Origin: Jacaranda mimosifolia
Taxonomy: Eukaryota; Streptophyta; Magnoliopsida; Lamiales; Bignoniaceae
Assembly: GCA_018894105.1 (NCBI GenBank)
Contig: CM032117.1
Span: 40,906,501 to 40,970,500 of the forward strand
Direction of reading: 5' to 3'
Length of the DNA: 64,000 nucleotides
Shown here: piece after piece, positions 17,634-51,637 of the stretch
How the letters are laid out: every line of letters starts with the position of its first letter
Position numbering within the stretch: the stretch's first letter is position 1
Made by a program: the position numbers and the translations under genes
The notes under the pieces: generated by a model
Seen by the model: the letters and a program-made list of their open reading frames with translations, nothing else
What the model was told of the DNA's origin: nothing
The model's database searches: none

Positions 17634-17644
17634 CCGACATCACT

Positions 17645-17836: not shown

Positions 17837-17837
17837 A

Positions 17838-18230: not shown

Positions 18231-18232
18231 TT

Positions 18233-18425
18233 GACATCATAATCCAGCCTGCTCAAATCAGCAAAGTCAATTTGAAACTACTTACAACATATGAGAAGCA
18301 ATCTACTCGAACCACTATGATACTCTCAACGTCGACCACCCTGAGGTTGAGTTGCTTCTTGAAAGAGTTATTAGGCATCCCCGATAGACCTATCACCTTC
18401 AAATTAGTCTCCCCTTCGAGACCCA
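18233..18425 (+). repeat. Direct repeat X, copy 2
   Basis: Second copy of 17645-17836 in the same orientation. It is followed by ACCTTAGGCTATCC, whereas copy 1 is followed directly by arm A'. Confidence 0.9.
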
Positions 18426-23960: not shown

Positions 23961-24632
23961 ATTAGTAACAGTTTTTGCTCAAGTTGAGAAAGCCATTGGG
24001 GGGTTTTTTTTTTTTTTTTTTTTTATAATTAAAGCTATTGGGAGTTTGCACTTTGATGCATGGAGGCTTGCACGGAGGAAAACGATTAAACTAAAACTCT
24101 TAAGACTTATCAACTTAATTAAGGGATGCATTATTTGAATTTATCCTTTTATTTAGAATTTTATTTATTTCATATCTGCTTTGTCATTTGAATAGTTCAA
24201 CTCCTAGTTTCTAGGAAGTAGGTGTAATTGAGAGTGGTATTAGTGGGTTTAGTATTTAGTTTCAGCAATGGATAGTTTTTAGTCATGGATCTATGGTTGT
24301 AGTGGTGCCGTTATTTAGCACTACTCATGATGTCTATGTAAAAGTCTGTACAAGACTTGCCAATCTGCCAGATAAAAACTAGCAATTTTCAGTTTCTTTT
24401 CATAAGCCTTAGCATATTTTTCCTCTTGTTATTTCCTCTCTTCTCCACGTGAACACATATTTCAATTCTTATTCTAATTTGATTAATATATATCAAGTAT
24501 ATTCAATTTTTAATAAATTAATTTTATAAAAAAAATATGTAACACACTTAATGCATATTTACAAAATAAAATAAAGGATACAGACTGATATTCATGTGCC
24601 TAACTTTAAAATTTTGGGACGTATCATTAATT
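23961..24632. other. Non-coding, possible copia 3' end
   Basis: Begins with the G-run/T-run near 23999-24024, then AT-rich sequence. It may be the worn 3' LTR of the copia remnant. No gene. Confidence 0.35.
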
Positions 24633-24641
24633 ATATTAGTA

Positions 24642-25524
24642 GGGGTTGGCTACGGTCCGATACCTATAATTTTTACCTGACATCCTACACCCCTTAAAAA
24701 ATTGACACGCGTCTTATTACCTTTTTTTAATCAATAGTAATTAAGTTAATTTACAATACTAATATTTTTTAATTAAATTAAAAATAAAATAATTTTTTAT
24801 ATGAAATACCTTAAATGTCCTTATCAAAAACTAATATATAACTAAAACAAAAATCAAAATATAATTAGCTCAAAAAATAAAAAAAGAAAAAAGAAAAATA
24901 ATTTTTTGGAAAACATTACAACCTACCCACCATCCCAATTCTGTTCTTCAACCCCCCCCCCCCCCCAATTCAAAATCTCCCCAAGCAATTTTTTGTTCTT
25001 CAACCCCAGCCGGTCCCAATTCAGAAAAAATTATTTCTTAAACCAATTCAGACGAACAGGGGTCTGAATAACAGAAAATTCTTGGCCTTTCAATCTGGTT
25101 GTGGGGTTTTTTAAATTAGAAAATTGCTTCTGAATTGGTTTAAGAAATAATTTTTTTTGAATTGGGGCGGTGGGGTTGAAGAACATAAAGTTTTCTCTGC
25201 GTTTGACTCTGGTTTTGAGGGTTGAAGAACAGATTTGGGATGGTTGGTGGATTGTAATGTTCTCCAAAAATTTATTTTTCCTTTTTTATATTTTTTGAGG
25301 TAATTATATTTTGATTTTTTTTTAGTTATATATTAATTTTTGATAAGGACATTTAAGGTATTTCATATTGAAAATTATTTTATTTTTAATTTAATTAGAA
25401 AAGATTTGTATAATAAATCAATTTAATTACTATTGATTAAAAAAAAGTAATTGGATACGTGTTAATTTTTTAAGGAGTGTAGGATGTTGATAAAAATTAT
25501 GGGTATCGGATCATAGCCAACCCC
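24642..25524. mobile_element. Mutator-type fold-back MITE, 883 bp
   Basis: Perfect 9-bp target duplication ATATTAGTA at 24633-24641 and 25525-25533. The two halves are near-complete inverted repeats: the left half starts GGGGTTGGCTACGGTCCGAT, and the reverse complement of the right end starts GGGGTTGGCTATGATCCGAT. The pairing continues for roughly 350-400 bases toward the centre. The interior includes a C-run near 24952-24966 and CTTCAACCCC repeats. There is no coding frame, and the 9-bp TSD points to MULE transposase mobilisation. Its TIRs are unlike those of the two large MULEs here. Confidence 0.9.
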
Positions 25525-25533
25525 ATATTAGTA

Positions 25534-26835
25534 TGCTTAAAACTAATTAAGTTAATAATTTTGGACTAGAATAGGAAATCCCTCTTTTGTGCACTCAGAC
25601 CAAAAGGCCAGGCTAGCATGCATTGGATGCCCCTCCCTGGTGGACCCAATTCAATACTAACTTATGGAAACCAAGCTTGTTATTTTCACAAAACTAATAA
25701 ACGAATGATTTTTGCGTTGGGTCTGCACAGAAATCAGTCCATCAAAAACAGATGTTTTTCTTGCCTCTTTCTTTGGTCCACCACCCTACGTACACTTCAC
25801 ATGCATCTTCACAATCCCAACACCACCCCACCCCCAACCCACCCCCCCAAAAGAGTAAACTTGTAACATAAATGTCTGCTGGGAACTTTTTTGTTTCTTA
25901 TATAAATGTCAATTTTGTTCGTATTATTTATAATCATGTCAGCACTAAGATCCATAATTGTAATTGTTTTATATTTTCATATCCAATCCTTGGAGTAATT
26001 TCCTCACAACCGATTTCATCTTCTCTTTCAAATTCAAGCTGCAGCCTGCACAGGCTAACAAAGACAAAAAGAAAAAAGGGAAAATGCATTCTATTATTAA
26101 AGAGGACCGATGATCCAACATGTGACCTTATTAGCTATTGATTTCATCAGTTCAACTGATTCTATCAAGGTTTTGCTCCAATTTGATAATTAAAACCAGG
26201 TTGCGAAGAAATCAATTCAAATCGATGCAAATAAGTACAAAATTAATTTAATTGGTGAATTGATTTACCTTTTAAACCGATTAGTAGATTTTTTTTGAAG
26301 TAAAAATTAAAGAAATTAATTTCACATTTTAAATTGATGTATGAATTAATGTGAAGTACAATTTGAAAAAAAAAAATCATAAATATTAGACAATTTTTGC
26401 TTTCCCCTTATGTGTATATATATACAATTTTTAATATTTTTAATATATTTATATAATATTAAAAAATATAATTATGATATTATACTGATTGAATTGATTG
26501 TTAAACCAATTGAACTAGTGACCCATTCATCATCGATGCAGTTTCTCAAATATTGCGTAATGCTGGAGAAAAGGCTAGCTAGATGACACTACTTTTAACA
26601 AGCTGTTAGCGACAAACACAAGCGTGGCCTAGGTGGAAGAGCCATAGCCACGCCCACAAAGCAAAAGATAAGAGCCTGACCAATTCTGCTTCCTCATTAC
26701 AAATTCTGGAAAAGCTATCCACCCCAGCTAGCCCTAAGGCTAAAACAGAAATTAATTTAACTGTTAACAGAAAAAAGTAGAGAAGAAGCTGCGAAAACCC
26801 AGCCAATCTCAGCCCTGGATTAATGAATAATTTAT
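25534..26835. other. Intergenic, no gene recognised
   Basis: AT-rich with C/A-rich patches near 25810-25850. The open frames at 25618-25866 and 25872-26141 have no recognisable motif. The stretch at about 26200-26530 has weakly inverted AATTGATT/AATCAATT phrases that could be an old MITE, but the ends are not clear. Confidence 0.4.
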
Positions 26836-27594
26836 TCACCAAGACGGAGAAGTGCAGGGAGAAGCTGATGAGGACGATGAAATCCCATCATTATTGCTGT
26901 TGGAATCAGTACTGCCCGTCGTGCAAATAGATCGAGCATCTCTGAGGGAAACAGAAGGGCCCTCTGGTGGAAGTTTTTTCATTGGAGTCAATGGGGGTGT
27001 AGTTGGAAGAGAGGAGGATCTGCTGCTGGTAGGCGAGCCTGCTGCTGTCTCTAAGTGGGACGGCGATGTGCCGGGAGTTTCAAATGGGGTACTAGGACTG
27101 TCCACCTTGCTTATTATCCTATTAATGGCTTCGCCGTCATATATTGGATTGCAGATGTATATCAGTTGGTCCTTAGTTTTCCCTGCGCTGCAGGTGCTGG
27201 CTGAGGGTGGAGAAGCTTCTCCAAGTAGTATCGAGTGTGGATAACTTGGGGAGGGCGTGAAATTAATGGGTAAATGGGGTGGTTGTTTTTCCAAATCCAG
27301 CTGTTGGTTTTCAGGGCCCGGGAAGAGGAAGCTTCTTGGAGCACGAAGAACCCCCTGAGCGTAGAAGCTGCAGAGAGATAGAGCGCTGGGCTGGTGGGAG
27401 TACTGTTCGGTGTCGCCGTCATTGCCGACGGCGGGGGCCGTGGCTGTGGAAGCTCGGTTTCGATGATGGCGGCCGCGCAATAAGAGGGAGCAGTAGAGCT
27501 CAGCTAAGAGAACTAAAACGAGGCCTAATACTATGGCCAGGGTTGCCACCATTACCACTGCTGCTCCCATGATTACCTTGGAAGTGCCAGTCAT
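26836..27594 (-). CDS. Single-pass membrane protein of unknown function
   Basis: An intronless 252-codon frame runs from ATG at 27594 to TGA at 26836. A strongly hydrophobic segment at about residues 7-38 (MGAAVVMVATLAIVLG..LLLR) is a single transmembrane anchor near the N-terminus, followed by basic RGRHHRNR, which suggests the remainder is cytosolic. The rest is low-complexity and rich in Ser, Pro and Thr, with a central LIYICNPIYDGEAINRI block (about residues 144-160) that looks like the conserved core. The Ser/Thr-Pro repeats (TPGTSPS, LPTTPPLTP) are candidate phosphorylation sites. Its base composition is much richer in G+C than the flanks, as expected for a host gene. I do not recognise a named family. 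The 13.2-kb MULE begins about 300 bp upstream of the start codon. Confidence 0.8.
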   Translation of the reverse strand: MTGTSKVIMGAAVVMVATLAIVLGLVLVLLAELYCSLLLRGRHHRNRASTATAPAVGNDGDTEQYSHQPSALSLCSFYAQGVLRAPRSFLFPGPENQQLDLEKQPPHLPINFTPSPSYPHSILLGEASPPSASTCSAGKTKDQLIYICNPIYDGEAINRIISKVDSPSTPFETPGTSPSHLETAAGSPTSSRSSSLPTTPPLTPMKKLPPEGPSVSLRDARSICTTGSTDSNSNNDGISSSSSASPCTSPSW

Positions 27595-27887
27595 CTCTCT
27601 CTTCTATCTCTAGGAGGAGGGAAGAGGGGGAGGAGAGGAACCGAAAAATGACGAGGGAGTTAGATTTTCGGCGGGAAAAAGAAAGGTAGTCTTTGGACTC
27701 CAGTCCACCTGTAACCAAAGGGGAATCTTGCGACGGGAACTTGGAATGGGAATGAGTTCCACGCTGATGATATAGGGTGAATTTTAATTTGCCACAGCTA
27801 AACTTTTATTCTTGGTGTTGCTTTGCCACCTGGCCCACCTCAAAGCCGTCAATATACATAATCAATAAATTTAAAAATAGTAAATCA
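27595..27887 (-). promoter_or_regulatory. Short 5' flank of the membrane-protein gene, truncated by a MULE
   Basis: About 290 bases separate the ATG at 27594 from the target duplication of the MULE. The purine/pyrimidine-rich part next to the gene (27595-27660) is probably 5' UTR. Any promoter element farther upstream is now displaced by 13.2 kb. This is a positional inference. Confidence 0.45.
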
Positions 27888-27896
27888 AAGTATTAA
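27888..27896 (+). repeat. Left 9-bp target site duplication of the MULE
   Basis: AAGTATTAA, identical to 41080-41088. A 9-bp duplication is the hallmark of Mutator-superfamily insertion. Confidence 0.95.
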
Positions 27897-28035
27897 GGGG
27901 AAATTATTAAAAAGTACCAAAACTACTTTCAAAATTTGTGTTCAGTCCCCAATTAAAAACTTATAGTGCAAACTCCCTAGTTTTAATAAAAGTTTAGAGA
28001 TTACTCCCTAGCCACTTGATTTGACACAAATGCCC
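27897..28035 (+). repeat. Left TIR of the intact MULE
   Basis: Inverted match to 40940-41079. Shared blocks include CTACTTTCAA, CAGTCCCCA, AACTCCC and GATTACTCCC, with moderate divergence between arms. It contains AT-rich sequence that may also hold the transposase promoter, since the ATG lies at 28275. Confidence 0.9.
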
Positions 28036-28274
28036 TTAAGTATCATATTTTTCCTTGTTTTTTCAAGCAAACAGTAAACCCTACAAACGCTCATTACCAG
28101 AAACAGAAAGAACAGAAAAAATTGCAACAAGCGGGAAACGAGAACAACGTTAGAGCCAAACGCCACTAACCCGACAACTGCATTGTCTTCTTCTCTTTTT
28201 ATTTTCATCATTTTCGGATTCCATCTTCTTCTCAGTTGCTTCTGTGTTTCCTTTTTTTTTTTTTTTCCCCTACA

Positions 28275-31200
28275 ATGTCAACCAGCAGCGAAGCAAGTGC
28301 GCTCAATCAAGTGTTGGGGAGTTGTCGCTACAAAGACCAGCTCCATATAATGTCAATTAAGGATAGTACGACTGTAATGGATATCTACATTAATCTAGCA
28401 AGAAAATGGAGTGAAATCAATTCCAAGCACTTCAGCTTGCGATATATAGCTCCACATCAAAGATTGTACGTGAGTTTTACTGATGACGATGACGTCATGA
28501 ATATGGTCTTACTGCATTTGACATTGAAGATGAACATTGCGGACATCTTGGTAAACCGAAAGGATGAATCAAGCAGCAAAGAAAAGAAGAGCAGTGATGT
28601 TTTAAGGTAATACTTCTACAGAATCTCAACTTTACTGCAATTAGTAAAGTTCTGTACATGAAGTGTTCTAAAATTGCTCTCTGTTTATTTGAAAATCTTT
28701 CTGTACTTGGAGCGTTCCACATTATACTTCATTGTAGTTAACATTGTACTTACAGAAACATATACTCTCTTCATTGAAGTTCTATACTTCCATTGTTTCT
28801 AACTTGTACGTCGCTTTATATAAACTTGTACTTCAAGTATCTAAATCTATAATTCGGCTTTCATGTTTTCTACTAATAAGATATCCAAATTGTACTGTCA
28901 TTGCTTAGGTTTTATACTTCAAGTGTTCAGAAATTGTTCTCAACTTTGTAAAAAGTGTACTCCTATTTTCTAAAATCATACAACATTTTATATAAATCTG
29001 TACTCTTTTCACATAAGTTCTACACTTCTGGTGTTCCCAATTTGTACTTCATTATATTAAAACAGGTAAATCATTCATTGAAGTTCTATACTTCAATCGT
29101 CTGAATCTGTACTTCACTTTACTTGAACTTGTACTTTAATTATCTGAACCTATTATTTAATTTTGAAGCGTGTAATAACGTACTATCTAAAATTTATACT
29201 GCGAAAGCTGAGCATCTATACTTCAGTTGCTCCAAAACTGTACCTCACATTGTCCAAAATTATACTTCGAATATCTAAACTTATATTTCAGTTGTTAAAT
29301 AATTTCACTTAAATCTTTATATTATTTTTATTGGGCTTATACACTTCAGGTGTTCCGAAATTGTTCCTCACTTTGTCTAATATTGTACTTCCTTTTTCAT
29401 CGAATCATACCTCATTTTATATTCATTTAATCTATATTTGTGCTGCATTCATTGAAGTTCTATACTTCAATTTCCTGAATTGGTACTTCATTTTGTGTGA
29501 AATTGTACTTTAATATTGCGCTTATACACTTCAGGTGTTCCGAAATTGTTCCTCACTTTGTCTAATATTGTACTTCCTTTTTTCATCAAATCACACCTCA
29601 TTTTATATTCATATAATCTATATTTGTGCTGCATTCATTGAAGCTCTATACTTCAATTGCCTGAATTGGTACTTTATTTTATGTGAAATTGTACTTTAAT
29701 TATTCGATTCAATTATTTAATTCTGAAGCGTGAACTGTTGTGTTATCCAAAATCTATACTGCGAGAGCCGAATTTTTATACTTCAGCTTTTTCGCAACTG
29801 TACTTAACCTTATGAAAAACTATACTTCCAATTTCTGAACTTATATTTCAGTTCGAACATAAATCCGCTTAATTCTTATACTCTTTTCGTTGCGCTTATA
29901 CACTTCAGGTGTTCCGAAATTGTACTTCATTTCTTTTATTTCTGTTCCTTCATTTTGCAAATCAATTTGCGTATATCTGTACTCTTTTTGTCAATGTTGT
30001 GTGCTTCATGTGTTCACAAATTGTACGTCACGTTTTTTTAACTTGTACTTCAATTTTCTGAATCTGTAATTTAATTTTCAAGTGTTCTACTAATGAATTG
30101 TACTTTATTGTGCCTAAAATTATACTTCATTTGCCATCCTCAAGGGATGTAGTGGAGGAGGAAATTGGTTCGACCAGTGCATCGCACAATGAATTGGCTT
30201 TAATTAGCAACTCAATTGATGCATGGAGGAATTGCATATATGGGGAGGGTCAAACATTCAATGATGCTCACGAGTTCAGAATTATGCTTAAGAATTATGC
30301 AGTGTCTACTTTGCGGTCATTTAAATACAAGAAAAATGACAGCAAAAAAATCATAGCCGTTTGCAGTGATGAAAATTGCAAATGGAGAATCTATGCATCA
30401 AGGCATGAAGTTGATAAATTATTTGGCATTCGAAAATGTAATCTAGAGCACACATGTGGTGAGGCTAATCTTCGGACAAGGGGACATCCTAAAGCTGATT
30501 CCGCTTGGGTTGCTAATGTAGTGAAAAATAAATTGAGATCAGAGCCATGTTATCGGCCCTGCACCATATTGAAAGATATCCACAGAGAATATGGTGTGGA
30601 ACTTAGGTACCATAAAGCATGGATGGGTAAGGAATTAGCTATGCATGACATCCATGGAGCCGAGAAGGGATCTTATGATAAGTTGAGGTGGTACTGTGAT
30701 GCTGTGAATAGAACAAACCCTGGAAGTATTGCAGACTGTGAGATTGACCCAATCAGTCGAAAATTTCGTCGGCTATTTATTTGTTTTAGTGCCTGCCTTC
30801 TTGGTTTTCTCAGGGGATGCAGGCCATTGATATTCTTGGACGGCACCCATATTAAAAATAAATTCAAAGGAGTCTTACTCAGCGCAGTCAGTAAGGACGC
30901 CAATGATGACTTATTCACGTTAGCATATGCAGTTGTTGACTCTGAAAATGATATGAATTGGGAGTGGTTCTGCTTAAAGCTGAGAAGTGTCTTAGATTCT
31001 GAATATTTGCCTGGCTTATCAAGGTTTACTTTCTTCTCCGATCGACATCCTGGTCTTCTTAAGGCCCTCCCCATGATATTTCCCGGTAGCCATCATGCAT
31101 ATTGCTTGAGACACTTAGTGGATAACTTCAAGAAACAAGTAAGTGTGCTCTATCTCTGTTTGTGAGATAATTATGTGAAATAAGCTCTACTTCATAACAT

Positions 31201-32062
31201 TAAGCCCATTATTGTTCTATTATTTTGAATTCAGGTATTAAGGAAGTACCCTCTACATAACAAGAAACATTGGTGTTCTATTTTTATGAAAGCTGCATAT
31301 GCGCCTACAAGGCAGGAGTATACCCGACATATAGACAGCATCTTGGAGTTAATGCCGCTTGCCAGAGACTTTATTATGCAGTCTGACCCAACCTGTTGGG
31401 CAAACTCCTTATTCAGTGGAGATCGATGGGGGGTAATAAACAATAATCAAGCAGAATGTTGGAATAATTGGGTTAAACCAGCCCGATTTATGCCAGTTGC
31501 AGCCATGGTTGATCACATACGCATGCAAATAATGATTATGATGCATGGTAAGAGAGAAGAATCTCATAAGATGGTTGGTCAATTATGTCCCAAGCAAGAG
31601 AAAAAGTTGGCAATCAATCATATGCGCTCTCACAACTTAAAAGTTGTCATGTCTAGCGGTTGGAGCTTTGAGGTGATTGAGCAAGACAAATCGTATGCTA
31701 TAGATTTACATAACAGAGTTTGTTCTTGCGGAGCATGGCAGATTGATAAGATACCATGCATACATGCTTGTGCTTCTATCGAGTCAAAGTCACTTTCACC
31801 GTATGACCTCACAGATCAATACTACCGAGTTGAGATGTATCAACAAGCATACCAAGCAGTTATAAATCCTATTCCTACGTTTGATATGCATATGTTCCAT
31901 GTAGATGATGACGACGTCATTCATGCACCTAATTGTCGATCTCAGCCTGGGCAGAGAAGGACACAGAGGATTCCATCACAGATTGAGAAGCGTGCCATTA
32001 AGTGTAAGAGGTGTGGTAGAACAGGGCATAATCGTCGAACTTGCAAAGAATCAGTAAAGTAG
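28275..32062 (+). CDS. MuDR-family MULE transposase (3 exons, 717 aa)
   Basis: Exons 28275-28606, 30145-31138 and 31235-32062; introns are GT..AG and the phases agree (split AGG codon, then phase 0). Domains: a PB1-like N-terminal region (about residues 18-95); a WRKY/GCM1-type zinc-finger DNA-binding domain (about 145-216, C184, C189, H213, C215); the MULE catalytic domain with D343 in FLDGTH, D410 in FFSDRH, the conserved CLRH (C431, H434) and E516 in NNQAECWNNW; a SWIM finger (C605, C607, C617, H619); and a CX2CX4HX4C zinc knuckle (C699, C702, H707, C712) just before the stop. It would bind the TIRs and perform cut-and-paste transposition in the nucleus. All key residues are present and no stop interrupts it. 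The start is the first ATG after a T-rich leader. The terminal codons lie inside the first unit of the 124-bp array. Confidence 0.93.
28607..30144 (+). repeat. Transposase intron 1 filled with TGTACTTCA-type repeats
   Basis: The 1538-bp intron has donor AG|GTAATAC and acceptor CCTCAAG|G. Throughout it, short phrases built on TGTACTTCA, TATACTTCA and CTGAA recur every 20-30 bases. A longer unit of about 187 bp (beginning GCTTATACACTTCAGGTGTT) appears at about 29335 and 29520, with a third start near 29893. No coding content is seen. Confidence 0.8.
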
Positions 32063-33247
32063 CCAACATTTGTACCTCAAAACTGGATAATTGTACCTGA
32101 TTTGGTCCCATTTGCACCTCGCTTGGGCAATGAAGCGGGTGATTTATCGTGAACATAGCAGCCTAGCATGTTGTTTAGTAAAGTAGCCAACATTTGTACC
32201 TCAAAACTGGATAATTGTACCTGATTTGGCCCCATTTGCACCTCGCTTGGGCAATGAAGCGGGTGATTTATCGTGAACATAGCAGCCTAGCAAGTTGTTT
32301 AGTAAAGTAGCCAACATTTGTACCTCAAAACTGGATAATTGTACCTGATTTGGCCCCAATTGCACCTCGCTTGAGCAATGAAGCGGGTGATTTATCGTGA
32401 ACATAGCAGCCTAGCAAGTTGTTTACTAAAGTAGCCAACATTTGTACCTCAAAACTGGATAATTGTACCTGATTTGGCCCCATTTGCACCTCGCTTGGGC
32501 AATGAAACGGGTGATTTATCGTGAACATAGCAGCCTAGCATGTTGTTCAGTAAAGTAGCCAACATTTGTACCTCAAAACTGGATAATTGTACCTGATTTG
32601 GCCCCAATTGCACCTCGCTTGAGCAATGAAGCGGGTGATTTATCGTGAACATAGCAGCCTAGCAAGTTGTTTACTAAAGTAGCCAACATTTGTACCTCAA
32701 AACTGGATAATTGTACCTGATTTGGCCCCATTTGCACCTCGCTTGGGCAATGAAGCGGGTGATTTATCGTGAACACAGCAGCCTAGCATGTTGTTTAGTA
32801 AAGTAGCCAACATTTGTACTTCAAAACTGGATAATTGTACCTGATTTGGCCCCATTTGCACCTCGCTTGGGCAATGAAGCGGGTGATTTATCGTGAACAC
32901 AGCAGCCTAGCATGTTGTTTAGTAAAGTAGCCAACATTTGTACCTCAAAACTGGATAATTGTACCTGATTTGGCCCCATTTGCACCTCGCTTGGGCAATG
33001 AAGCGGGTGATTTATCGTGAACATAGCAGTCTAGCAAGTTGTTTACTAAAGTAGCCAACATTTGTACCTCAAAACTGGATAATTGTACCTGATTTGGCCC
33101 CATTTGCACCTCGCTTGGGCAATGAAGCGGGTGATTTATCGTGAACATAGCAGCCTAGCATGTTGTTTAGTAAAATAGCCAACATTTGTACCTCAAAACT
33201 GGATAATTGTACCTGATTTGGCCCCATTTGCACCTCTCTTGGGCAAC
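32053..33247 (+). repeat. 124-bp tandem array, 9.6 copies
   Basis: Nine full 124-bp units start with AGTAAAGTAG or ACTAAAGTAG at 32053, 32177, 32301 and so on, with a tenth partial unit at 33169-33247. Units are about 95-99% alike. The first unit begins inside the transposase CDS: its AGTAAAGTAG supplies the last two codons' bases and the TAG stop. Unit variants (CCCAATTGC..GAGCAA and ACTAAAG) recur in a pattern suggesting expansion in two-unit blocks. Each unit carries two TTGTACCT motifs. Confidence 0.97.
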
Positions 33248-33644
33248 TTTGTACTTAATATCTTCAAATTTTTACTAATATTCTTGGGCAATGAAATTTG
33301 TTCAAAGATTTGATTTTGAATTCTTGGTAGTTAATCACCAAAATATTTTATAATATGAATAAAATAATATTAAGAATTTTCAGTTGTTAATCAGTAGTGT
33401 TCAACGGATGAATGTTATCAATCGCAGTAATGAAAGAATACCTATGCTTTCATGGATGTAAACAAATGAGAATTTGTCGAACATATCCACCCTATGAAAC
33501 ATAGAAAATCCGTACAACACCAAATCCGATGCTCTCAAATTATTGTACTTGCCCATCATTACAATTAGTGGAGAATAATTATTCATTTACAATAAGTGTA
33601 CTTGAACAAAACAAATTTTATACTTTATTTGTTGCAGATTGTAC
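33248..33644. other. Spacer between the two arrays
   Basis: AT-rich, non-coding. It contains scattered TGTACTTG/TATACTTT motifs and a GAGAATAATTATTC palindrome near 33570. It probably includes the transposase 3' UTR end, but I cannot identify a poly(A) site. Confidence 0.4.
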
Positions 33645-34921
33645 TTTCATTTTCCCTGGTTTGTACCTCATTGACCCCAAAATGCTCTCGAATCCGCCGC
33701 CCGATTTTAATTCTCTTGAAGTGTACATCCACGAAGCCCATTTTATACACCATCTGTTTCAATTTGTACTCCAGTTTTCATGAATTGTACTCAGGATCCC
33801 CGCCTTGTTTCAATAGAATTTGAGTGTCCGTCCCCGAAACACATTTTATACTTTCATTTTCCCTGGTTTGTACCTCATTGCCCCCAAAATGCTCTCGAAT
33901 CTGCCGCCCGATTTTAATTCTCTTGAAGTGTACATCCACGAAGCCCATTTTATACACCATCTGTTTCAATTTGTACTCCAGTTTTCATGAATTGTACTCA
34001 GGATCCCCGCCTTGTTTCAATAGAATTTGAGTGTCCGTCCCCGAAACACATTTTATACTTTCATTTTCCTTGGTTTGTACCTCATTGCCCCCAAAATGCT
34101 CTCGAATCTACCGCCCGGTTTTAATTCTCTTGAAGTGTACATCCACGAAGCCCATTTTAAACACCATCTGTTTCAATTTGTACTCCAGTTTTCATGAATT
34201 GTACTCAGGATCCCCGCCTTGTTTCAATAGAATTTGAGTGTCCGTCCCCGAAACACATTTTATACTTTCATTTTCCCTGGTTTGTACCTCATTGCCCCCA
34301 AAATGCTCTCGAATCTGCCGCCCGGTTTTAATTCTCTTGAAGTGTACATCCACGAAGCCCATTTTATACACCATCTGTTTCAATTTGTACTCCAGTTTTC
34401 ATGAATTGTACTCAGGATCCCCGCCTTGTTTCAATAGAATTTGAGTGTCCGTCCCCGAAACACATTTTATACTTTCATTTTCCCTGGTTTGTACCTCATT
34501 GCCCCCAAAATGCTCTCGAATCTGCCGCCCGATTTTAATTCTCTTGAAGTGTACATCCACGAAGCCCATTTTATACACCATCTGTTTCAATTTGTACTCC
34601 AGTTTTCATGAATTGTACTCAGGATCCCCGCCTTGTTTCAATAGAATTTGAGTGTCCGTCCCCGAAACACATTTTATACTTTCATTTTCCCTGGTTTGTA
34701 CCTCATTGCCCCCAAAATGCTCTCGAATCTGCCGCCCGGTTTTAATTCTCTTGAAGTGTACATCCACGAAGCCCATTTTAAACACCATCTGTTTCAATTT
34801 GTACTCCAGTTTTCATGAATTGTACTCAGGATCCCCGCCTTGTTTCAATAGAATTTGAGTGTCCGTCCCCGAAACACATTTTATACTTTCATTTTCCCTG
34901 GTTTGTACCTCATTGCCCCCA
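33645..34921 (+). repeat. 207-bp tandem array, 6.2 copies
   Basis: Six full units of 207 bp start TTTCATTTTCCCTGG at 33645, 33852, 34059, 34266, 34473 and 34680, with a seventh partial unit at 34887-34921. Units differ at only a few positions (for example CGATT/CGGTT and TATACACC/TAAACACC). Because 207 is a multiple of three, the same short frames repeat on both strands, each closed by a stop per unit, so they are not evidence for a protein. Each unit has several TTGTACT/TGTACAT motifs. Confidence 0.97.
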
Positions 34922-35058
34922 AGTTTGTATTCAAATTCCCAGCCCTGTTTCAGTTGAATTTAAGTTATAAATAGTTACTGGAAAATTACACTTAGCTACA
35001 AAATAATATTATAAACAAATTATGCTTCAAGTTACACATGTATTTACATATAAGTGCT

Positions 35059-38000
35059 TCAAATCCTGGCATTTTCATGAGTTAATATTCTATGCGCCAT
35101 TTTCGCACGATATTTATCAACATTAATTGTTCCAGCATCCCTCCAGAACACGGGGGTGTCCCTAGCAAAACCTTCTGCCCAAAGGCATACATAGACACCA
35201 CAATCCACTGTACCCACTTGCTGCCTACTTTTCCTCTGCTGTAGCTTTTCATCCACACGACTCCCCAGTGAAAGCCTAATGTACCGAGAATAAAATGAAG
35301 CCTACAAAAAATTTGTCAATTGTTGACTCCACAAATTTGCAATGGGAAATCGTAGGGAAAGAAAGCAAACTTACAATGGCAACAGCTATCGGTTTGTATC
35401 TGGGGGCCATTATTGAATTCATGTATAAAAAAGAACGAGTGGATGTGTCAAGGACAACTAAGAACCAGTGCTGGCGCCGGCAAATCGGTAGGATTATGTA
35501 GCGACAGTTGTTTAAAACATCTACCGTCAGCTCTTCCAAATCTGAACAGGTGAAGCTGTTAAGCTTAAGCATCATCTCCACAAATTCTTCATCCGTAATA
35601 TCCTTCATGTTGCGTTCATCTATTCGGTCTAATATATCAGCCTATGAAATATAAAACAAATGGTTAGACTCATCTCTCACCGTGTACTAAATTAAGTTAG
35701 GAAACTGTCATATACCTGCGCTATTGAGGACGTAAACCACACCTTATGCTGACAGTTGTTGCTAAAAGATGGGCTACATAATATCGACATGTAACAGTCC
35801 ACTATGTCGCCGGTAAGTTCTCCTCCAAATAAGAGCTCACAAAAGTCTCTTCCATTCAGAAGATGTCTTGCTCCTTCCCAGACGGTTACCCTACACAATT
35901 GTTAATTGTGTGTTCAGATACCAGTTTATCCAATAGAAAAACAATAAGCAAATTTTGTTACCTCAAATTATCTCTTCCGACAAAGTGGTCGATGACTTCT
36001 CGCTCTTCTACTGGAATAAGAGCAAGTCCTCTATAATCAGTCCTTCCTTTATAGGGATCGGCCACTTCAGTCTTTGGGGTGACTTGTTCATCTACCACCA
36101 GGATTGGTTCTTTTGCCACCTGGATTGAATCTTGTGCCACCTCGATTGGTTCATTTGCCATCTGGGTTGGTTCATGTGCCACCTGGGGTACAAACACAGC
36201 ACATAGGAACCAAGTATTAACTATTGAAATATAAAAGATAAACACATGAAAGTACAGACTTCACCAACATGGAGTACAAAACTCAAGCACATAGGTGTAA
36301 AGTGTCAACTGCTGAGGTAGAATAGATGAGCACATGAAGTACAAATACCACCAACATGGAGAACAAAACTCAAGCACATTAGGTGTAAAGTGTCAACTGC
36401 TGAGGTAGAATAGATGAGCACATGAAGTACAAATACCACCAACATGGAGAACAAAACTCAAGCACATTAGGTGTAAAGTGTCAACTGCTGAGGTAGAATA
36501 GATGAGCACATGAAGTACAAATACCACCAACATGGAGAACAAAACTCAAGCACATTAGGTGTAAAGTGTCAACTGCTGAGGTGGAATAGATGAGCACATG
36601 AAGTACAAATACCACCAACATGGAGTACAAAACTCAAGCACATTAGGTGTAAAGTGTCAACTACTGAGGTAGAATAGATGGCACATGAAGTACAAATACC
36701 ACCAACATGGAGTACAAAAATCAAGCCCATAAAAACAAAGTATCAACTGCTGAGGTAGAATAGACGAGCACATGAAGTACAAATACCCCAACATGGAGTA
36801 CAAAACTCAAGCCCATAAAAAGGTGTAAAGTGTCAACTGCTGAGGTAGAAAAGATGAGCACATAAGTGCAAGTATCAATAATATGAAGTATAAGACATCA
36901 TCCATTAAGTGCAAATATCAACCCATCAAGTATAAGATATCATAATACTTATTACAAACAGACAGTTTACAAATGAAATGCAAGTAGGAAAAAAATAAAA
37001 CATTAAGTAGTGTACAACACCTTCTTCTGCTCTTGTTCTTTATTTTTTCGTGCACGAGGACGAGCACGGTAGGTCTTTGTCACTTGTCTTGCTCTTTTGG
37101 CTGGTGTGGTGCTGGGGGGGCTGACAAAATCTGGAGATTTCTGTTTTCGCTTCCTATCTTCTCGATTGCGCATATTTGTCACAATCGAAGACATGACATT
37201 AGCCACTTCAATCTCATATTCCTCGAACTCAGCCCCTTCAATTGGTATATAATGTGCTGTCTTCAATGGTCTGGGGGAATCTGAAGGATCATGACGTTTT
37301 TTGGTTCGACTTTCTTCATCCACTATGTCTTCAGAATCATCCCCTTCTTTCTGTGCATCATGTACCAAATCAAGTACCCCCTCATGCACATATTCACCAA
37401 CTTCCTCCTCAAGCTCCACCGCATTAGTCTCTTCCTCAGTTGGATGCTCCTCCTCACCCTGCTCCTTCATTACCATGTATTCCAATGAAGCAATTTTTTC
37501 TTTCAATGATTTAATTTCTTCTCCGTTCGCTGCAATCATTGCTTCATATATTGTATGATCACAGACATGGACTTCATTCATGACAGTACTGGCAGCCTCT
37601 GATTTCTTGATCAAATCTGCCAATTCTAACTCCTCTGGAGCAGGGTTGAGGTCTACAACCTATTACAATGGAAATAATTATCAAATTCAAATTATTATAC
37701 AAACAACAAATAATGAATTATTACAATTATTACCATATCTGCTGTAACTTGCTTCAACTTCTTCTCTGCCTGCTCCACATTTTGTGGGAGTTTGCTATCC
37801 TTCCACCGGTAAAAGCGTGGAAACTCAAACAAACTCACTGGTGTAGCTAGTGATGGGATGCGTTCATAAACCCATGCCTGTCATTCATAAATCTAAAAAT
37901 TATACTCACTTGAATATAAATATAATCAATGCTATTAGAAAAATGAAGCAAACACTTACCATCAACCCTACTGTACACCCATCAATGTACTTCTTTCTTG

Positions 38001-40721
38001 TTTTTCCACCTACTCCTAAATGGTTCCTCATATCTTGCACAAGAAACCTGTATGCAGCTTTGCCCCATGCATACAGACCAACTCTGGACAAATTGTCCAA
38101 GTATGGTAGGAGAAATCGTGGAGTCCAGTAATTAGATGTTGGAAACAAAATACAATTAAAAACAAAAACTATGTACAACCTAGAAAAATCATTCAAGTCC
38201 TCCACACTATCCTTATATACATACTCCTCAAGTTTTTTAGCTATTTCAGATCTAGTTATATTCTGCAGCTTTCCAGAAAAAAGCCGCTCAAAAGTTGAAG
38301 ACTTTATCTTCAATGTTATGTCAACAGATTGCCCCACATGTGGCAACCCTAAAACCATTGAAAATTCAGCTACAGAAAAAGGAACCTCAACCCCCTCCGC
38401 AAAATGAAATGAGAGCTTTTTTGGGTCAAACCTCCTAAGTATAGCTTCAAGTCGAATGAAACTTGAACTTAACTTCGGCATATCCATGTATATATAGAAA
38501 GGGGTCTTCTTCAATGCATCAAAATGTTTGGACCCCATCTTGGACTTCACAAGCTCCAATTTACTATGAAAATATTGGGGGGAGCAACGAGAACAGACCT
38601 CACAACGTCTTGGCTTTGCTGCAAGGCCAAAAAAAAAATAGTATATTAACAAATAATAAAGTAACCCTTTTAGATAGTGTGTACTAAAAGCATGAATATT
38701 TTCTACTAAAATATCTTCAAAAATGTACTATAGAAACACATAATATATACTACACTTTCAGTTATTCTATACAGATTATATACTAAAGTTCCATTTAATG
38801 TATACTGCAGTAATAAAGGTTTTATACTTCAGTTTCTTCTAAAATGTGCTGCATATGCGAAGATTATATATTACATTTTCAGTTAATGTATAATGCAGGC
38901 TGAATGTTTATGTACTAAAATGCTGCTATTATATATTGCAGCAACATAGATTACATACTACCCTTATGCCTGAAGTGTACTGTCAGATTGAATGCTTTAT
39001 ACTGCATTTGTTCCTAAAATGTATTGCACCTACAGAGATTTTATACTACACCTTTGTCCAAAGTGTACTCCGGATGCTCTTAAAATGTACTGCATGCTTG
39101 AATGCTTCATACTACACTTATGCCTAAAGTGTACTGCACGTTTTCATGTTTTGTACTACTTTGTTTCAACAGAGATTTTATACTACACCTTTGTCCAAAG
39201 TGTACTCCATATGCTATTAAAATGTACTGAATGTTTGAATGCTTCATACTGCACTTATGCATAAAGTGTACTGCCAGTTTGCACGTTTTATACTACTTTG
39301 CTCCAATGGAGATTTTATTCTACACTTTTGCCTAAAGTGTACTCCAAATGCTTCTAAAATGTAGCACAGATTATATTCTACCTTTTGCCTAATGTATACT
39401 GCAATCTTGAATGCTTTATACTGCATTTGTTCCTAAAATGTACTGCACCTACAGAGATTTTATACTACACCTTTGTCCAAAGTGTACTCCAGATGCCCTT
39501 GAAATGTACTGCAGGTTTGAATGCTTCATACTACACTTATGTCTAAAGTGTACTGCACGTTTTCATGTTTTGTACTAATTTGCTTCAACAGAGATTTTAT
39601 ACTACACCTTTGTCTGAAGTGTACTCCAGATGCTCTTAAAATGTACTGCATGTTTGAATGCTTCATACTGCCCTTATGCCTAAAGTGTACTGCTAGTTTG
39701 CATGTTTTATACTACTTTGCTCCAATTGAGATTTTATACTACACTTTTGCCTAAAGTGTACTCCAAATGCTTCTAAAATATAGCACATATTATATTCTAC
39801 CTTTTGCCTAATGTATACTGCAATCTTGAATGCTTTATACCACATAAATTTGTTTCTAAAATGTACTTCTACAAAACAGATTGTATACTGCATTTGTGTC
39901 TGAAATGCCCTGTACCTACATTTTTACCTAAATCGTACTGGCAGTTTGCTTTATACTATACTTATGCCTAAAGTGTACTGCACCAATAGATGTTTTATAC
40001 AGCACTTTTGGCTAAAGTGTACTCCAGATGCTTTTTAAAGGTAATGCGTTTATTCACATTATATACTATCTTTTGCCTAATGTATACTGCAAGTTTGAAT
40101 ACTTTATATTACATACATTTGTTTCTAAAATGTACTGCTGCAACAGATCATATATAACACCTATGCCTAAAGTACACTGCTCGTTTGAATGTTTTATACT
40201 GCTTTGCTACTAAAATGTACTGCGCCTACTCAGATTATATTCCACACTTATATCTAAAGTATACTACCAATTTGATTGTTTTATACTACATTTGCTTCCA
40301 AATTGTACTGAAGCTACCCACATTATATACTACACTTTTGCTAATGTATACTGCATGCTTTCATGTTCTGTACTACAGATAACACACCACCACATTCAGA
40401 TAGTTTTAAAATATAATTTTTCCGTACACTTTTTGTTTAAAAAGAAGTATAAATCCCTTAAAGGTGAAGTGCAACTTTCATGACCTTCAAGTACAAATCA
40501 GAACTTCCAATCTCACAATAGAAACCATATATCAAATGGGTCCAACTATTTAGCGACTAAAAATGAATAAAAACCCTAAACATGAGAAAATAGACAAGAA
40601 ATGAGTGAAACACTGAAAAATCACGGACATTTGAAGTTTCAAATGCAGAAAACATACCTTTGTTCCTTTCAGTCACTTGTTTTTTTACTTCGCTTCTCTT
40701 TGCAGCTGTTTTTCGTTCCAT
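35059..40721 (-). CDS. Plant-mobile-domain/Ulp1 cysteine protease fusion (8 exons, 803 aa)
   Basis: Exons, in order on minus: 40721-40658, 38618-37960, 37877-37734, 37659-37021, 36182-35962, 35890-35716, 35641-35375, 35301-35059. All introns are GT..AG and the joined frame is open. Exon 1 encodes a short basic N-terminus. Exon 2 has CEVCSRC and a region resembling the plant mobile domain/DUF1985 (FDPKKLSFHF..VPFSVAEFSMVLGLP). Exon 3 has AWVYERIP. Exon 4 is acidic (about residues 330-400) and then basic with KRARQ and RARPRARKNK, a likely nuclear signal. The C-terminal C48 protease has H692, Q751 and C757 in QQVGTVDCGVY, but N709 where Asp is usual. Ulp1 enzymes cut SUMO or related modifiers; substrate specificity here is unknown. 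The 5' end (the first ATG of exon 1) is the least certain part. Confidence 0.88.
36241..36860 (-). repeat. 88-bp tandem array in intron 4 of the Ulp1 gene
   Basis: About seven units with an 88-bp period (GAGCACATGAAGTACAAAT at 36328, 36416, 36504, 36592, with a one-base deletion near 36680). The central units are nearly identical; the last two are shortened and diverged. The array lies wholly within the intron between 37020 and 36183. On the minus strand it carries TTGTACT and CTTCATGTGC motifs. Confidence 0.93.
38690..40440 (-). repeat. Ulp1-gene intron 1 filled with GTACTGCA/GTACTCC-type repeats
   Basis: Most of the 2.04-kb first intron (40657-38619) is built from phrases such as AAAGTGTACTGCA, TTTATACTACACTTTTGCC and AAAATGTACTGC on the plus strand, repeating roughly every 35-50 bases. 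Larger near-duplicate blocks occur at about 39035-39300 and 39450-39715. Donor AAG|GTATGT and acceptor CTTGCAG bracket it. Confidence 0.8.
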
Positions 40722-40939
40722 TGTCGCAGTAAAATGGCAGAAATTTTGTTGTTGTTGTTTTTTTTTTCCCACTTCTTCTTCTTCTTCTTCTTCTCGCGAC
40801 AGTGGTAGAGGAACGGTTTTGCGACCTTTTCTTTTGGCGCTTAGAAAGGTTGGTTTCAAGACAATAAAGAAAATAAGAAGCGTTCTTCTTAAGAGAGAAC
40901 GTATTTTCGAGGTTTTTTTGTTGTTTTTTCCAGCTGCAA

Positions 40940-41079
40940 GGGTATACTGGTCTTTCTGAAAGATATGGGGAGTAATTCCTAACTTTTGTGAAAAAGTGGG
41001 GAGTTTTGTGTGAAATAATTCAAATGGGGACTGATCACTAAATTGAAAGTAGGATTAGGGATTTTTTTCTAATTAACTC
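40940..41079 (-). repeat. Right TIR of the intact MULE
   Basis: Inverted partner of 27897-28035. Read inward it runs GAGTTAATTAGAAAAAAAT, then CAGTCCCCATTT, AACTCCCCA and ATTACTCCCC. It ends at 41079, directly followed by the 9-bp duplication. Confidence 0.9.
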
Positions 41080-41088
41080 AAGTATTAA
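41080..41088 (+). repeat. Right 9-bp target site duplication of the MULE
   Basis: AAGTATTAA, identical to 27888-27896. Confidence 0.95.
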
Positions 41089-41174: not shown

Positions 41175-41647
41175 TCATACCAAAATTTGAAAGAATCTTG
41201 AACGGAAATATATTTCTACACATGGGAAATATTCGATGCCTATAATTTAGATAATTAGTTTTATTATTGAGGGTTCTTTTTCTAAATAAATATAACATTT
41301 GTTGTAATTTCAAATTTTACATTATCTTTTAGGGTGTTAGTTGTTTTATAGATAAACACAAATCATTTAGGGAGTTAGGTATTTTACAGATAAATATGAA
41401 TTTGTTTTATTCTTATCAATTAGAGAATTAAGGTTTTGAGATGCCTATAAATAGGCAAGCATATGTAATTGTACACATAATTTGAGCAATAAATGTTCTT
41501 TGACTTTCTCTTTACAAGGAAGCCTTTTTTTTATTAATTTTATTATTTTAAAATTTATCGTGAACAGGCTTTCTTTCCGTCAAATGTTCGTATAATAGCT
41601 TGTCCTTTCTTTTCTATCTTTTCTCCTAAATTTTACACCTCGTGTCA
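41175..41647 (+). repeat. 5' LTR of the gag-only element
   Basis: Direct repeat of 43865-44321. Shared landmarks are TTAGTTTTATYATTGA, AGATAAACA, GAGAATTAAGG and GAACAGGCTTTCTT. Confidence 0.88.
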
Positions 41648-43864: not shown

Positions 43865-44321
43865 TGATAAGGAAGTTAGAGAAAATCTTGGTTGAAAATA
43901 TTTTTTTTGCACATGAAAAATATTCAATGCCTATCATTTAGAAAATTAGTTTTATCATTGAAATTTTTTTCTTTCCAAACAAATATGACGTTCATTGTAA
44001 TTTCAAATTTCATATTATCTTTTGAGAGATAAACATGAATTACTTGGGAAGTTAGGTATTTTATAGATAAACATGAATTTATTTTTTTCTTATTAGTTAG
44101 AGAATTAAGGCTTTAAGAGGCTTAAAAATGGGCAAGCAAATGCAACTTATGACACACAATTTGAGAAATAAAATTCTTTTGATTTTTCTTTATGGGGAAA
44201 GCTTTTTTTCTTTAATTATGTTACTTTGAAGCATGTCATGAACAGGCTTTCTTCCAATCAAGTTATTCATACTATAGCTTATCCTTTTTCCCTTTTCTTT
44301 CATATTTTACTTGTTGCATCA
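43865..44321 (+). repeat. 3' LTR of the gag-only element
   Basis: Direct repeat of 41175-41647. It starts TGATAAGG and ends TTGCATCA, directly followed by the GTTTG duplication. Confidence 0.88.
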
Positions 44322-48271: not shown

Positions 48272-48457
48272 TTAGTTATCCTACATATGCTCATGCATGT
48301 GAATGATGTAAGTCAAATCCAAAGTCAAAGAACTTATATTCCTTGATTATGTGCAGGTGTTAAAAGCTTTAGGTCTATTGTCTGGAGCATGTAATATCAT
48401 TAACAGTATGGATGTTTTTTATGATCCTGTCATTCCAAAAGAGGACAATGTAGTCCT

Positions 48458-49493
48458 TGTTGATTCTGGTGGTAGGAATTTCTATGATCGGTAAAAATCA
48501 AGTGGTCGAGGTGAGACTACAGTTCTCTGTCTTTAAGACGAATTAGTCCTGCACCAGTGCTAACGGCAACTGACTATTATCTCCCAAGATACGATGACTA
48601 ATTCAGATGGTAACAGCACTACAAACCATCTGATCTTTTTAAACGTTAAGCATATTGAACTCTTAGGACTATGCTGAAGATGTTGTTGTATATTGTATGA
48701 TTGTATGAATATGCAGATCCGGGATTGATATTTTGTAGTGCCAATGCAACAGCAGAAAAGGTTGTCATCAACGTTGCTGCAAATTTCGAAAACAAAAGTT
48801 GGAATGACGCAGTTCAGGTGCATCCTTTGGAGGATTTAGATTAGCTGAAATTAATTCACTCATTTTTTGAATTCCAAAAGGATAAGCTAAAATTAATTTC
48901 AATTGTTAAAGGTAAGCTGAAATTAATTTCAAAAATTTGAAGGTTTTTTCCTGTTGGGCTTCAAAATAATTCAGACTGTTGGGCCAAAAAATAATTCAGA
49001 TTAAATTTAGCCTAAAGGTTAATACTAAAAACGCAATTTAGCCTAAGCCCACGACCACACTGCGCCAAGCCAAGCCAAAGCCAGGCCCAGTCGAGCCAGC
49101 AGGACGGGCAGGCGGCGGCAATGACGCACGTACGTGAAGGTTGGATTGAACGCACTACCATGTAAATCCTCTCCCCTCCAAACACTTGTAGTACCCCCAA
49201 GGGGCCCAACCCTTACCTCTACACTTAAGACATATATTCAAGTCCACATTTTACTCATTTTGCAATGTGGGATGGAGTTTCACTCCTCTCATTCCTTTGG
49301 CTCATTCTAGTCTTCTTAGTCAACTTTCAAGTAGCTTTGACCATTAATTTCTCATTCACTTGAAATTGATTTTAGCCATTTTAACACATTATCGTCATCT
49401 ACCCGCAGCGTAGTTTAGATGATTACCAATTTCTTAGAAATTAATATCTTCAGCACACTTAAAAATTTGGTCAAAGAAGACCAATTTCCAATA
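48458..49493 (-). repeat. LTR of the inner copia element (3' LTR)
   Basis: Direct repeat of 51638-52683. It includes a GC-rich segment (about 49040-49130) rich in GCCAAGCC and GGCCCAG phrases. Confidence 0.87.
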
Positions 49494-50346
49494 GTCTCCC
49501 ACATTAATGGAAATTAATGCCACTCATAATGCATATTCTTATACGAACACGAGAGAGTTTAGGCGAATAACTACTGCATCAGGATAGATAGCTTGTGGCT
49601 TTGAACCTACCTTAGTGAAGCACTATCGAGCTTACTTGGCTAATCAGTGAACGTAGTGTCTTAAACTGTTCAACCATTGGTGTAAACCAAGACAACATTA
49701 CTCACACAATAGTTGTTCTTATGCTTTCTAGTTCTTTCCAGTTGTGTCCGTTTTGGTCATAGACACCAATCCTGAATTCATAAACGTTTACGATGAAGCG
49801 GCCCATCTTCACACTTACATAGGTGTCTCCCATAAAGAGTATCCTTCCATACTCAGCAGGCAGCACTTCCATGCCATAGGAATGGGTTGAAGCACTCACA
49901 TGAACCTTTATAACTTAGTTGTCCCATTGAACCAAGTTCTTGGGATCTCCGGTCATCATAGTTGGGTGTCAGCTATGTCAGTTCTTAAACTTATGGGTTT
50001 TAATCCCATTCCTTTCATCAGGCGTTTGAGTTGATCTCTGGGTAGGCCTTTGGTTAATAGATCCGCTAAGTTTTTTCTTGGAATTCACATAGTCGAGTGA
50101 AATTACCGTATTTGAGATCAATTGTTTTATGGAATTGTGTCAGCGTCTGATGTGATGAGTTTTAGAATTATACATGCTGCTTTGACTTAGGTACTTCCAC
50201 TTTAGCCAAGCATCCCCACATTTGCACATATTTGTAATAAAAGTAATGAAATACTTTTTCTTTTCCACCTCTAGTTAACACAAACTTTGAGTCACATATA
50301 TTAACTCCAAAGGCATTATTTTTATTCACTTAAACAAGGTTAAGTA

Positions 50347-51485
50347 CTATCTTTCCATCAAATTTGAATAGACCATTCTGCAAAAGCCTCTACCAAAGAA
50401 CATGCCATTCTTGGAAAGCACAAATCCATCAGACTCAAATACAAGTTTAAAACCGTCTTTCACTAGCAAAGACCCTGACACTAAGTTCTTGCGTATGTCT
50501 GACACATGAAGAACCTCATTTAGCGTAAGCCCCTCGCCAGAAGTCATTTTCAAAACCACATTGCCCATTCCAGTAATCTCAAAAGTTGACAAATTGCCTA
50601 TATGCAGTTTCTTTTCAGTAACAGGAGTATAGGTTGAAAACATATATTTTTCAGAATAAATGTGCCGAGTGGCATCAGTGTCAATCCACCACTCTATCGG
50701 ATTATCAACAATATTGGCTTCAAAAACCATTGCCGAGAGGTTCAGTTCAAATAAGTCCAGTAGTACGGACTTTTCCTCAATTATATAGACTTGATTTGGT
50801 TTGTTCTTCTTAGGAAGTCGACAATCTTTGGCCTTGTGGTTCGGCTTTCCATAGTTATAGCAATTTCCTTGAAACCTTACAAGTTTCTTACCTTTGCTAT
50901 TTTGATTAACCCCTTGTCGCTTCTTCCTTTTCTCATTTGCATTTGACCTTGATTCAACTATGTTGGTTTTAGCCTCCATTTTAATTTTATCTTTCTTCAT
51001 ATCAGACATCCGATTGTCCTCCTCTATTCTCAACCAGACAATCAAATTTTCCAGACCCATCTCCTTTCTTTTATGTTTGAAATAGTTCTTGAAATCCTTC
51101 CACGATGGCAGTAACTTTTCATAATTGTAGCTACTTGAAAGGATTCACTCAAAATCATATTTTCAGCATGAATTTCGTGTAGAATAATCTGTAGTTCTTA
51201 GACTTGGCTCATGACAGATTTAGAATCCACCACAAATTCCTTCAAACCAACATCATCTGCCCGATATTTCTTATCAAGTGACTCCTACAACTCTTTAGTT
51301 GTCTTAATAAGGTTGTATAGCGACTCATCCAGTCCATTCAAGATGTAGTTCTGGCACAAGAAATCACTTTGATTCCAGGCATCTAAAGCAGCCTGTGTTT
51401 GGACATCAATGTCATCTTTAGGTGCAGCAGGTGCGTCCTCTTTCAGAAATCTAACAAGACTCAAAGTTATTAGGTAAAGCAGCAT
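50347..51485 (-). pseudogene. Inner copia gag-protease, broken
   Basis: The upstream piece (51485-51285) is the gag N-terminal part (ALDAWNQSDFLCQNYILNGL). The longer open piece (51060-50347, 237 codons) has a basic linker, a zinc knuckle [14 protein letters not shown] in which the second Cys is Tyr, and a protease motif [11 protein letters not shown] where the catalytic D-T/S-G has lost its Gly. It ends in the pre-integrase [19 protein letters not shown] block. The two pieces are separated by a shift or stop near 51070-51280. The lost motif residues suggest it is inactive. Confidence 0.78.
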
Positions 51486-51637
51486 TTTTTGCTACCAACT
51501 CTTAAAATCAATTCCAATAAATTTTTCTGGTCTTTCTCTGTGAGCAGGAATAGGGGCAGGAACTGATGCAATGATTGGAGGAACAGGAACTTGATTTGAT
51601 GTCATGATCACAAAAATTGGATAATTCATCTTAAAAT

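Follow-up and report, generated by a model that had tools for sequence, protein, structure and literature searches.

Could a plant transposon with two open genes also carry, in its non-coding DNA, the words by which one of its own proteins would recognize it? The question is raised by a stretch of 64,000 bp from Jacaranda mimosifolia (contig CM032117.1, positions 40,906,501 to 40,970,500; hereafter the window, in whose numbering all coordinates are given), where a Mutator-like element (MULE) of ~13 kb occupies positions 27897-41079. Its ends and genes support a complete, coding-intact MULE with target site duplications (TSDs) and terminal inverted repeats (TIRs). Its most informative feature is a motif lattice, in which the word TRTACYNCA recurs with a period near 22 bp, and its likeliest function, a probable one in our judgement, is a VANC-like self-targeting anti-silencing system in the Ulp1-fused (KIU) form, with a motif of its own.

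The limits of the element were defined by the following features.

27888-27896, no strand: left TSD, AAGTATTAA, read from the sequence
27897-28008, plus strand: left TIR, aligned part 27902-28008 (end-to-end alignment)
40968-41079, minus strand: right TIR, aligned part 41074-40968 (end-to-end alignment)
41080-41088, no strand: right TSD, AAGTATTAA, read from the sequence

The exact 9-bp duplication claimed in the original prediction is indeed perfect (9/9 match), and has the length characteristic of the MULE superfamily. The probability that two 9-mers match by chance is 8.6e-6 from composition, and 12 of 400,000 random pairs within the window did so. As for the matching TIRs, also predicted, their similarity is well above chance, with a local score of 86 where 500 shuffles reached at most 45 and 1985 random window pairs at most 51, and places the element with the TIR-MULEs; the match itself is imperfect, with 72.5% identity over 109 columns, and is worst at the outermost five bases (GGGGA vs GAGTT, 2/5 matching). 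A similarity of 72.5% cannot date the insertion, and the recent activity and autonomy proposed beforehand are at most presumptive. The element sits upstream of a minus-strand open reading frame (ORF) at 26836-27603, 294 bp from the first in-frame ATG (27594); a Pfam scan of this ORF found no match. Mutator insertions usually lie upstream of genes, as is the case here with respect to the ATG of this ORF. A likeness of the TSD to the core of the VANC21 motif was taken as a coincidence, because AAGTATTAA is present five times in the AT-rich window.

Two genes in opposite orientation were predicted in the element, and rebuilding them returned exactly the uninterrupted coding sequences announced beforehand, with GT..AG at every intron: 2154 nt for the transposase (717 amino acids (aa) plus stop), and 2412 nt for the second gene, whose eight exons run on the minus strand from 40721 to 35059, with seven introns, and encode 803 aa with no internal stop.

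28275-28606, plus strand: transposase exon 1, weak PB1-like match below the Pfam cut-off (model, Pfam)
30145-31138, plus strand: transposase exon 2, DBD_Tnp_Mut and MULE DDE domains (model, homologues, Pfam)
31235-32062, plus strand: transposase exon 3, SWIM domain, and a zinc knuckle under the cut-off (model, Pfam)
40658-40721, minus strand: PMD/DUF1985-Ulp1 exon 1, the least certain (model)
37960-38618, minus strand: exon 2 of the same gene, bulk of the PMD/DUF1985-like domain (model, Pfam, homologues)
37734-37877, minus strand: exon 3, end of PMD (model, homologues)
37021-37659, minus strand: exon 4, acidic linker (model)
35962-36182, minus strand: exon 5, starting with 21-bp coding repeats (model, Tandem Repeats Finder (TRF))
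35716-35890, minus strand: exon 6 (model, homologues)
35375-35641, minus strand: exon 7, protease domain with the catalytic His (model, Pfam)
35059-35301, minus strand: exon 8, protease domain with Gln and Cys (model, Pfam, SENP1 alignment)

The transposase is of the MURA type with a MULE DDE domain: it matches PF10551 (1.7e-18), PF03108 (9.5e-16) and, over its cut-off, SWIM, and the residues D343, D410 and E516 (hand count) are kept as in six aligned homologues. There are 50 open GT/AG combinations that give a transposase of at least about 700 codons; the joins chosen here and in the second gene are predicted ones, the most plausible. The six homologues span both transposase joins, the second of which is well conserved and the first poorly; the homologue P0006 lacks the residues just ahead of the second join.

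In the second protein, PMD (residues 80-285, 2.6e-11, 43.7 bits, above the cut-off of 34.9) and Peptidase_C48 (residues 675-794, 5.7e-11) stand within one predicted chain, the joins between them being mostly predicted. The join after residue 241 has conserved flanks in two Gesneriaceae homologues and join 575/576 in one; the remaining five were placed by frame and splice consensus. Aligned with SENP1 (E 0.013), exon 8 keeps the active-site Gln and Cys (Q751 and C757 by hand count), and the protease His is at 692 by the same count; these labels, like that of Asn 709 discussed below, follow the roles of the SENP1 active-site residues. A search with the full-length protein returned 0 homologues among 7999 scored candidates, and a search restricted to residues 24-290 returned 2 among 1257, two Gesneriaceae proteins aligning at the PMD region. 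An AlphaFold model of the PMD exon, built with the two homologues, had a mean pLDDT (predicted local distance difference test) of 45. Queried with the N-terminal 305 aa, the PDB sequences yielded two weak matches, both to ribosomal proteins (E 0.28 and 1.2), which were set aside.

Self-comparison and TRF revealed five minisatellite arrays, named A to E, which occupy all four non-coding segments of the element longer than 400 bp: intron 1 of the transposase gene, the intergenic spacer (two arrays), and two introns of the Ulp1 gene, the fourth and the first. Their long units differ, with lengths of 186, 124, 207, 88 and 66/137/419 bp, respectively.

28607-30144, plus strand: array A, transposase intron 1, 22-bp period, 186-bp unit at 29329-29700, 14 plus-strand TRTACYNCA (TRF, counts)
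32053-33246, plus strand: array B, intergenic, 124-bp unit x 9.6, its first bases overlapping the transposase stop (self-comparison, TRF)
33639-34922, plus strand: array C, intergenic, 207-bp unit x 6.2 (self-comparison, TRF)
36183-37020, minus strand: array D, Ulp1-gene intron 4, 88-bp unit x 7.2, 12 minus-strand TRTACYNCA (TRF, counts)
38619-40657, plus strand: array E, Ulp1-gene intron 1, units near 66, 137 and 419 bp, 32 plus-strand TRTACYNCA (TRF, counts)

In all the non-coding DNA of the element, the top enriched 6-mers were TGTACT (77 vs 7.1 expected) and TTGTAC (73 vs 8.2); the most enriched 7- and 8-mers include CG-rich words restricted to single arrays. The element has 81 copies of the longer word TRTACYNCA in its 8617 non-coding bp and 0 in its 4566 exon bp. 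Outside the element it was found 6 times in the 16,388 bp of the left flank, 3 times in the 22,912 bp of the right flank, and 4 times in 11,501 bp around a decayed sister element described below. The four large segments hold 14, 23, 12 and 32 copies, and the eight others, including both terminal segments and the small introns, hold 0. Within any one large segment all copies point the same way, on the plus strand in three of them, such as the spacer 32063-35058 (10 copies in B and 13 in C), and on the minus strand in intron 4 of the Ulp1 gene. Trimming B, C and D to single units left 50 sites in 3996 bp, where 500 dinucleotide shuffles yielded 0.91 on average and never more than 5. The letters YNC, which were unused in finding the sites, follow TRTAC in 22/40 cases in A, 12/14 in D and 43/57 in E, vs 15/113 in the flanks. 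The element shows a short motif enriched within its non-coding tandem repeats, as the VANDAL/VANC systems do.

Many of the sites are also regularly spaced, forming a lattice that the original prediction did not mention. Between neighbouring T[AG]TAC sites the distance is exactly 22 bp for 29 of the 56 spacings of E and 14 of the 39 of A, and it differs by no more than 1.5 bp from a multiple of 21.75 in 43/56 and 26/39, respectively. Autocorrelation peaks at lag 22 in A, D and E, and at lag 21 in the unit of B; no 21-22 lag was seen in five flank stretches. Where the lattice of E skips a register, in eight 44-bp gaps, four of the sequences at the skipped position are one base off the word (by eye). 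When non-redundant 22-mers were compared, the free columns conserved beyond the 99.9% null were, for A, +5 and +6 and, for E, +5, +8, -4 and -5; three conserved free columns lie at the core and two, in E, upstream of it. A one-strand 22-bp profile trained on E recovered 21 sites in A (null maximum 10) and 5 in C (maximum 3). A two-strand motif model fitted by expectation-maximization was discarded, the near-palindromic core having been merged. Next to array D, a 21-bp tandem repeat (4.8 copies, 36086-36186) lies within coding exon 5, so that the short period extends from the array into protein-coding sequence.

The window holds a single relative of the element.

4380-14542 (about), plus strand: decayed sister element of the same layout, with a supported right end and an unsupported left end and TSD (alignments, lags, words)

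Its transposase DNA is 72.6% identical to that of the element, and its plus-strand transposase is 50.6% identical in amino acids over 650 columns, with PMD and Ulp1 pieces on the minus strand. As had been noted, it is riddled with stops: 20 in the transposase match, some of them in stretches that are out of frame or cross the intron, plus 10 in the three alignments with the second protein. The left end aligns from the first base with a score, 38, that is within the chance range, and a search for the sister's TSD gave nothing better than 7/9. All five non-coding stretches of the sister have lag 21 or 43 among their leading ones, and in two it is the strongest, the transposase intron (z 4.4 at 43) and the Ulp1-gene intron (z 6.4 at 21). 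The words are others: TATGTACT occurs 15 times in the two spacer stretches of the sister, once in the five segments of the element and once in the flanks, and YAGTACTT occurs 4 times in the sister's transposase intron and twice elsewhere in the sister, vs 0 in the element segments and 3 in the flanks. Element and sister have a common layout, a roughly common period and different words. CpG content is ambiguous as an indicator: the observed/expected ratio is 0.57 in the element's transposase exons vs 0.28 in those of the sister, and falls to 0.04 in array D and 0.23 in array E.

What could such a lattice be for? VANC proteins are described as having a DUF1985 domain and as binding to short motifs of non-coding tandem repeats, related Arabidopsis VANC proteins using different motifs that form such repeats (Hosaka 2017, PMC5735166), and they demethylate their own kind of element (PMC5735166, PMC10398659). 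A 2026 review adds that Ulp1-fused VANC genes (KIU) act likewise on KIU elements, the role of Ulp1 being unknown (PMC13317346). We favour a VANC-like function because the element has both parts of such a system, a PMD/DUF1985-Ulp1 protein and a motif lattice. From the domains, the lattice, the word and the contrast with the sister, all of which are read directly from the DNA, we infer the following sequence of events. The protein would act like Arabidopsis VANC and bind its own TRTACYNCA lattice, where sites about two helical turns apart would allow many molecules to sit on one face of the DNA. Binding would free the protein's own family, and no other, from DNA methylation and silencing, the transposase would stay expressed, and the expressed transposase would then cut and move the element. 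The Ulp1 domain may strip SUMO from silencing proteins at the bound site, which is the weakest step. Local unequal exchange or slippage would amplify motif-bearing units, and motif and protein might drift jointly between families, as the different words of the sister suggest.

Several observations weigh against this function. On the side of the protein, DUF1985 itself scores below its cut-off (residues 95-215, 3.9e-6, 27.3 bits, cut-off 35.1), so that the family matched is PMD, and an Asn stands at 709 (hand count) where SENP1 has the Asp of the triad. On the side of the DNA, TRTACYNCA was picked after viewing the sequence, and the shuffle counts are effect sizes, not formal p-values. YNC follows TRTAC in only 1/2 cases in the single unit of B and 2/6 in that of C; in the C unit, the leading lags are 11, 22 and 21, all of modest z (2.5-2.7), with lag 11 slightly the highest, and the short spacer stretches 33292-33638 and 34923-35058 have no 21-22 lag. 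Motif training on A alone found none, and the E-trained profile misses the single units of B and D; the shared part is therefore the core plus the period. The words of VANC21 and VANC6, YAGTATTAY and AGTTGTCC/AGTTGTAC, are absent from the five element segments. Finally, the arrays may share their word through descent from one 22-bp repeat.

This last point leads to the rival that we take most seriously while holding it unlikely, namely that the arrays are neutral minisatellites, a 22-bp repeat having expanded early and spread over introns and spacer by slippage with no protein to read it. Nested amplification is plain in the arrays, B and C copies are 96-99% alike, and common descent alone would yield a shared word. 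Of the four free columns conserved in E, moreover, two sit 4-5 bases upstream of the core. Neutral spread accounts less readily for a core that is kept in the non-redundant 22-mers of A and E while spacer columns are near background, for a word kept across five arrays with unlike units, for arrays in all four large non-coding segments, and for a sister that retains the period with other words.

Still less probable, to our mind, is that the word is read by other proteins, either the transposase or host factors with a GTAC core, the arrays then being transposition or enhancer sites. GTAC is the core recognized by SBP/SPL host factors, including in the copper response, and transposase-bound subterminal repeats occur in other superfamilies, which counts in favour of this idea. 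GTAC is frequent here, since TGTAC makes up 21/21 of the TRTAC sites of B, 26/36 of those of C and 13/15 of those of D. Against it, TATAC replaces TGTAC in 18/40 sites of A and 28/57 of E, the fuller SBP form CGTACAA was found twice, in A only, and the outermost sites (28723 and 40369) are >700 bp from the ends, the terminal segments holding none. It is very improbable, in turn, that the second gene is a captured passenger without function in a silenced or dead element whose open frames reflect youth only. The triad Asp read as Asn would suit such a passenger, and ULP regions of MULEs were initially described as transduplicated host sequence. The retained protease His, Gln and Cys speak against a passenger, as do the matching two-gene layout of the decayed sister and, among the matches listed, the long transposase relatives and PMD-region relatives of the second protein in Gesneriaceae.

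How does this putative VANC-like system compare with those described? A survey of Mutator elements credits the VANDAL group with TSDs of 9 bp, with TIRs of 46-174 bp, with SWIM and CCHC and, for half of its members, with PMD and/or DUF (PMC6446971), features that the element fits. With VANDAL21/Hiun and VANDAL6 it shares the MULE character, a second protein whose likeness to DUF1985 stays below the Pfam cut-off here, a motif in non-coding arrays that varies between related elements, and degenerate ends (PMC5735166). Unlike them it has a fused Ulp1, a PMD that fits better than DUF1985, and recognisable TIRs; it is not from Arabidopsis, and no VANB was seen in it. The Kaonashi/KIU elements are also MULEs with Ulp1 joined to a VANC-like protein, encoded opposite to the transposase, yet they are described as non-TIR elements with three coding genes (PMC13317346), whereas here we found TIRs and recognised two genes, in a domain scan that covered the element's ORFs of at least 120 aa except two. 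Grapevine Mutavine-3, -4 and -18 are likewise large MULEs with TIRs (141-263 bp) and a ULP region (Benjak 2008, PMC2528002), and Mutavine-4 is listed with a 9-bp TSD, like the element; tandem arrays go unmentioned in the main text of that paper, the comparison being one of descriptions, not of sequences. The element had been proposed as a perhaps undescribed Ulp1-MULE with TIRs: the TIRs are there, but Ulp1-carrying MULEs with TIRs were already known in grapevine and melon (grapevine: PMC2528002).

A search of open-licence literature returned no mention of TRTACYNCA or of the lattice, which says little since the word itself was not queried; one for VANC with helical periodicity returned nothing on plant transposons, judged by title. 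The key eudicot VANC paper, Sasaki 2022 (EMBO J), is said to deal with the density of motifs and their helical periodicity.

What is known of VANC anti-silencing comes from Arabidopsis, and a coding-intact element from another plant lineage would offer a test of its generality. With a predicted motif, a lattice and a reader fused to a protease, this element could reveal the role of Ulp1 and how motif and protein change together, and could also supply a sequence-specific tool that removes methylation at chosen sites.

We also examined relatives of the transposase, of which 392 were significant (the best 120 of 392 were listed); scanning viral contigs with transposase exon 2 brought up none. A tree was built from 33 of the 120 listed homologues plus the element's transposase. 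Two proteins of ginger (Zingiber officinale), P0012 and P0018, nest in a clade otherwise made of Henckelia and Primulina, both Gesneriaceae, plus one further sequence, with 100/100 support for its inner group of six; over 586 columns, P0012 shares 80% identity with a Primulina protein. A third ginger protein, P0065, is among the listed matches and lies outside the tree. P0012 and P0018 are on chromosome-size contigs of 141 and 166 Mb, with differently styled annotations, which makes contamination less likely. This suggests a possible horizontal transfer of the MULE family into ginger, as judged among the matches listed, where other lineages may be missing. The element's transposase branches beside the Gesneriaceae/ginger clade, at a weakly supported fork. 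A broader scenario, which we offer as a tentative one, would combine these elements into an own-specificity system, in which a protein might read the phased 22-bp lattice of a TIR transposon and its protease strip SUMO-dependent silencing from that family alone, relatives having switched words and the family having crossed between Lamiales and ginger.

Other repeats and genes were noted in the window. Immediately to the right of the element, direct repeats of ~430 bp (41183-41618 and 43873-44301) are 74.9% alike. An inverted repeat, 17239-17632 vs 18230-17838 (98.2% over 394 bp), adjoins a direct repeat of 194 bp, 17644-17837 vs 18232-18425 (96.4%), and the region 17239-18425 is a recent rearranged duplication. 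A foldback-like palindrome at 24627-25540 is 79.9% identical to its own reverse complement over 943 columns. Direct repeats at 48457-49491 and 51637-52681 (84.7% alike) surround a minus-strand ORF, 50347-51144, with Pol_BBD, 48457-52681 being probably a decayed retrotransposon. Lastly, the minus-strand ORF 59198-59620 has an Ist1 domain (5e-14) and is a probable host gene.

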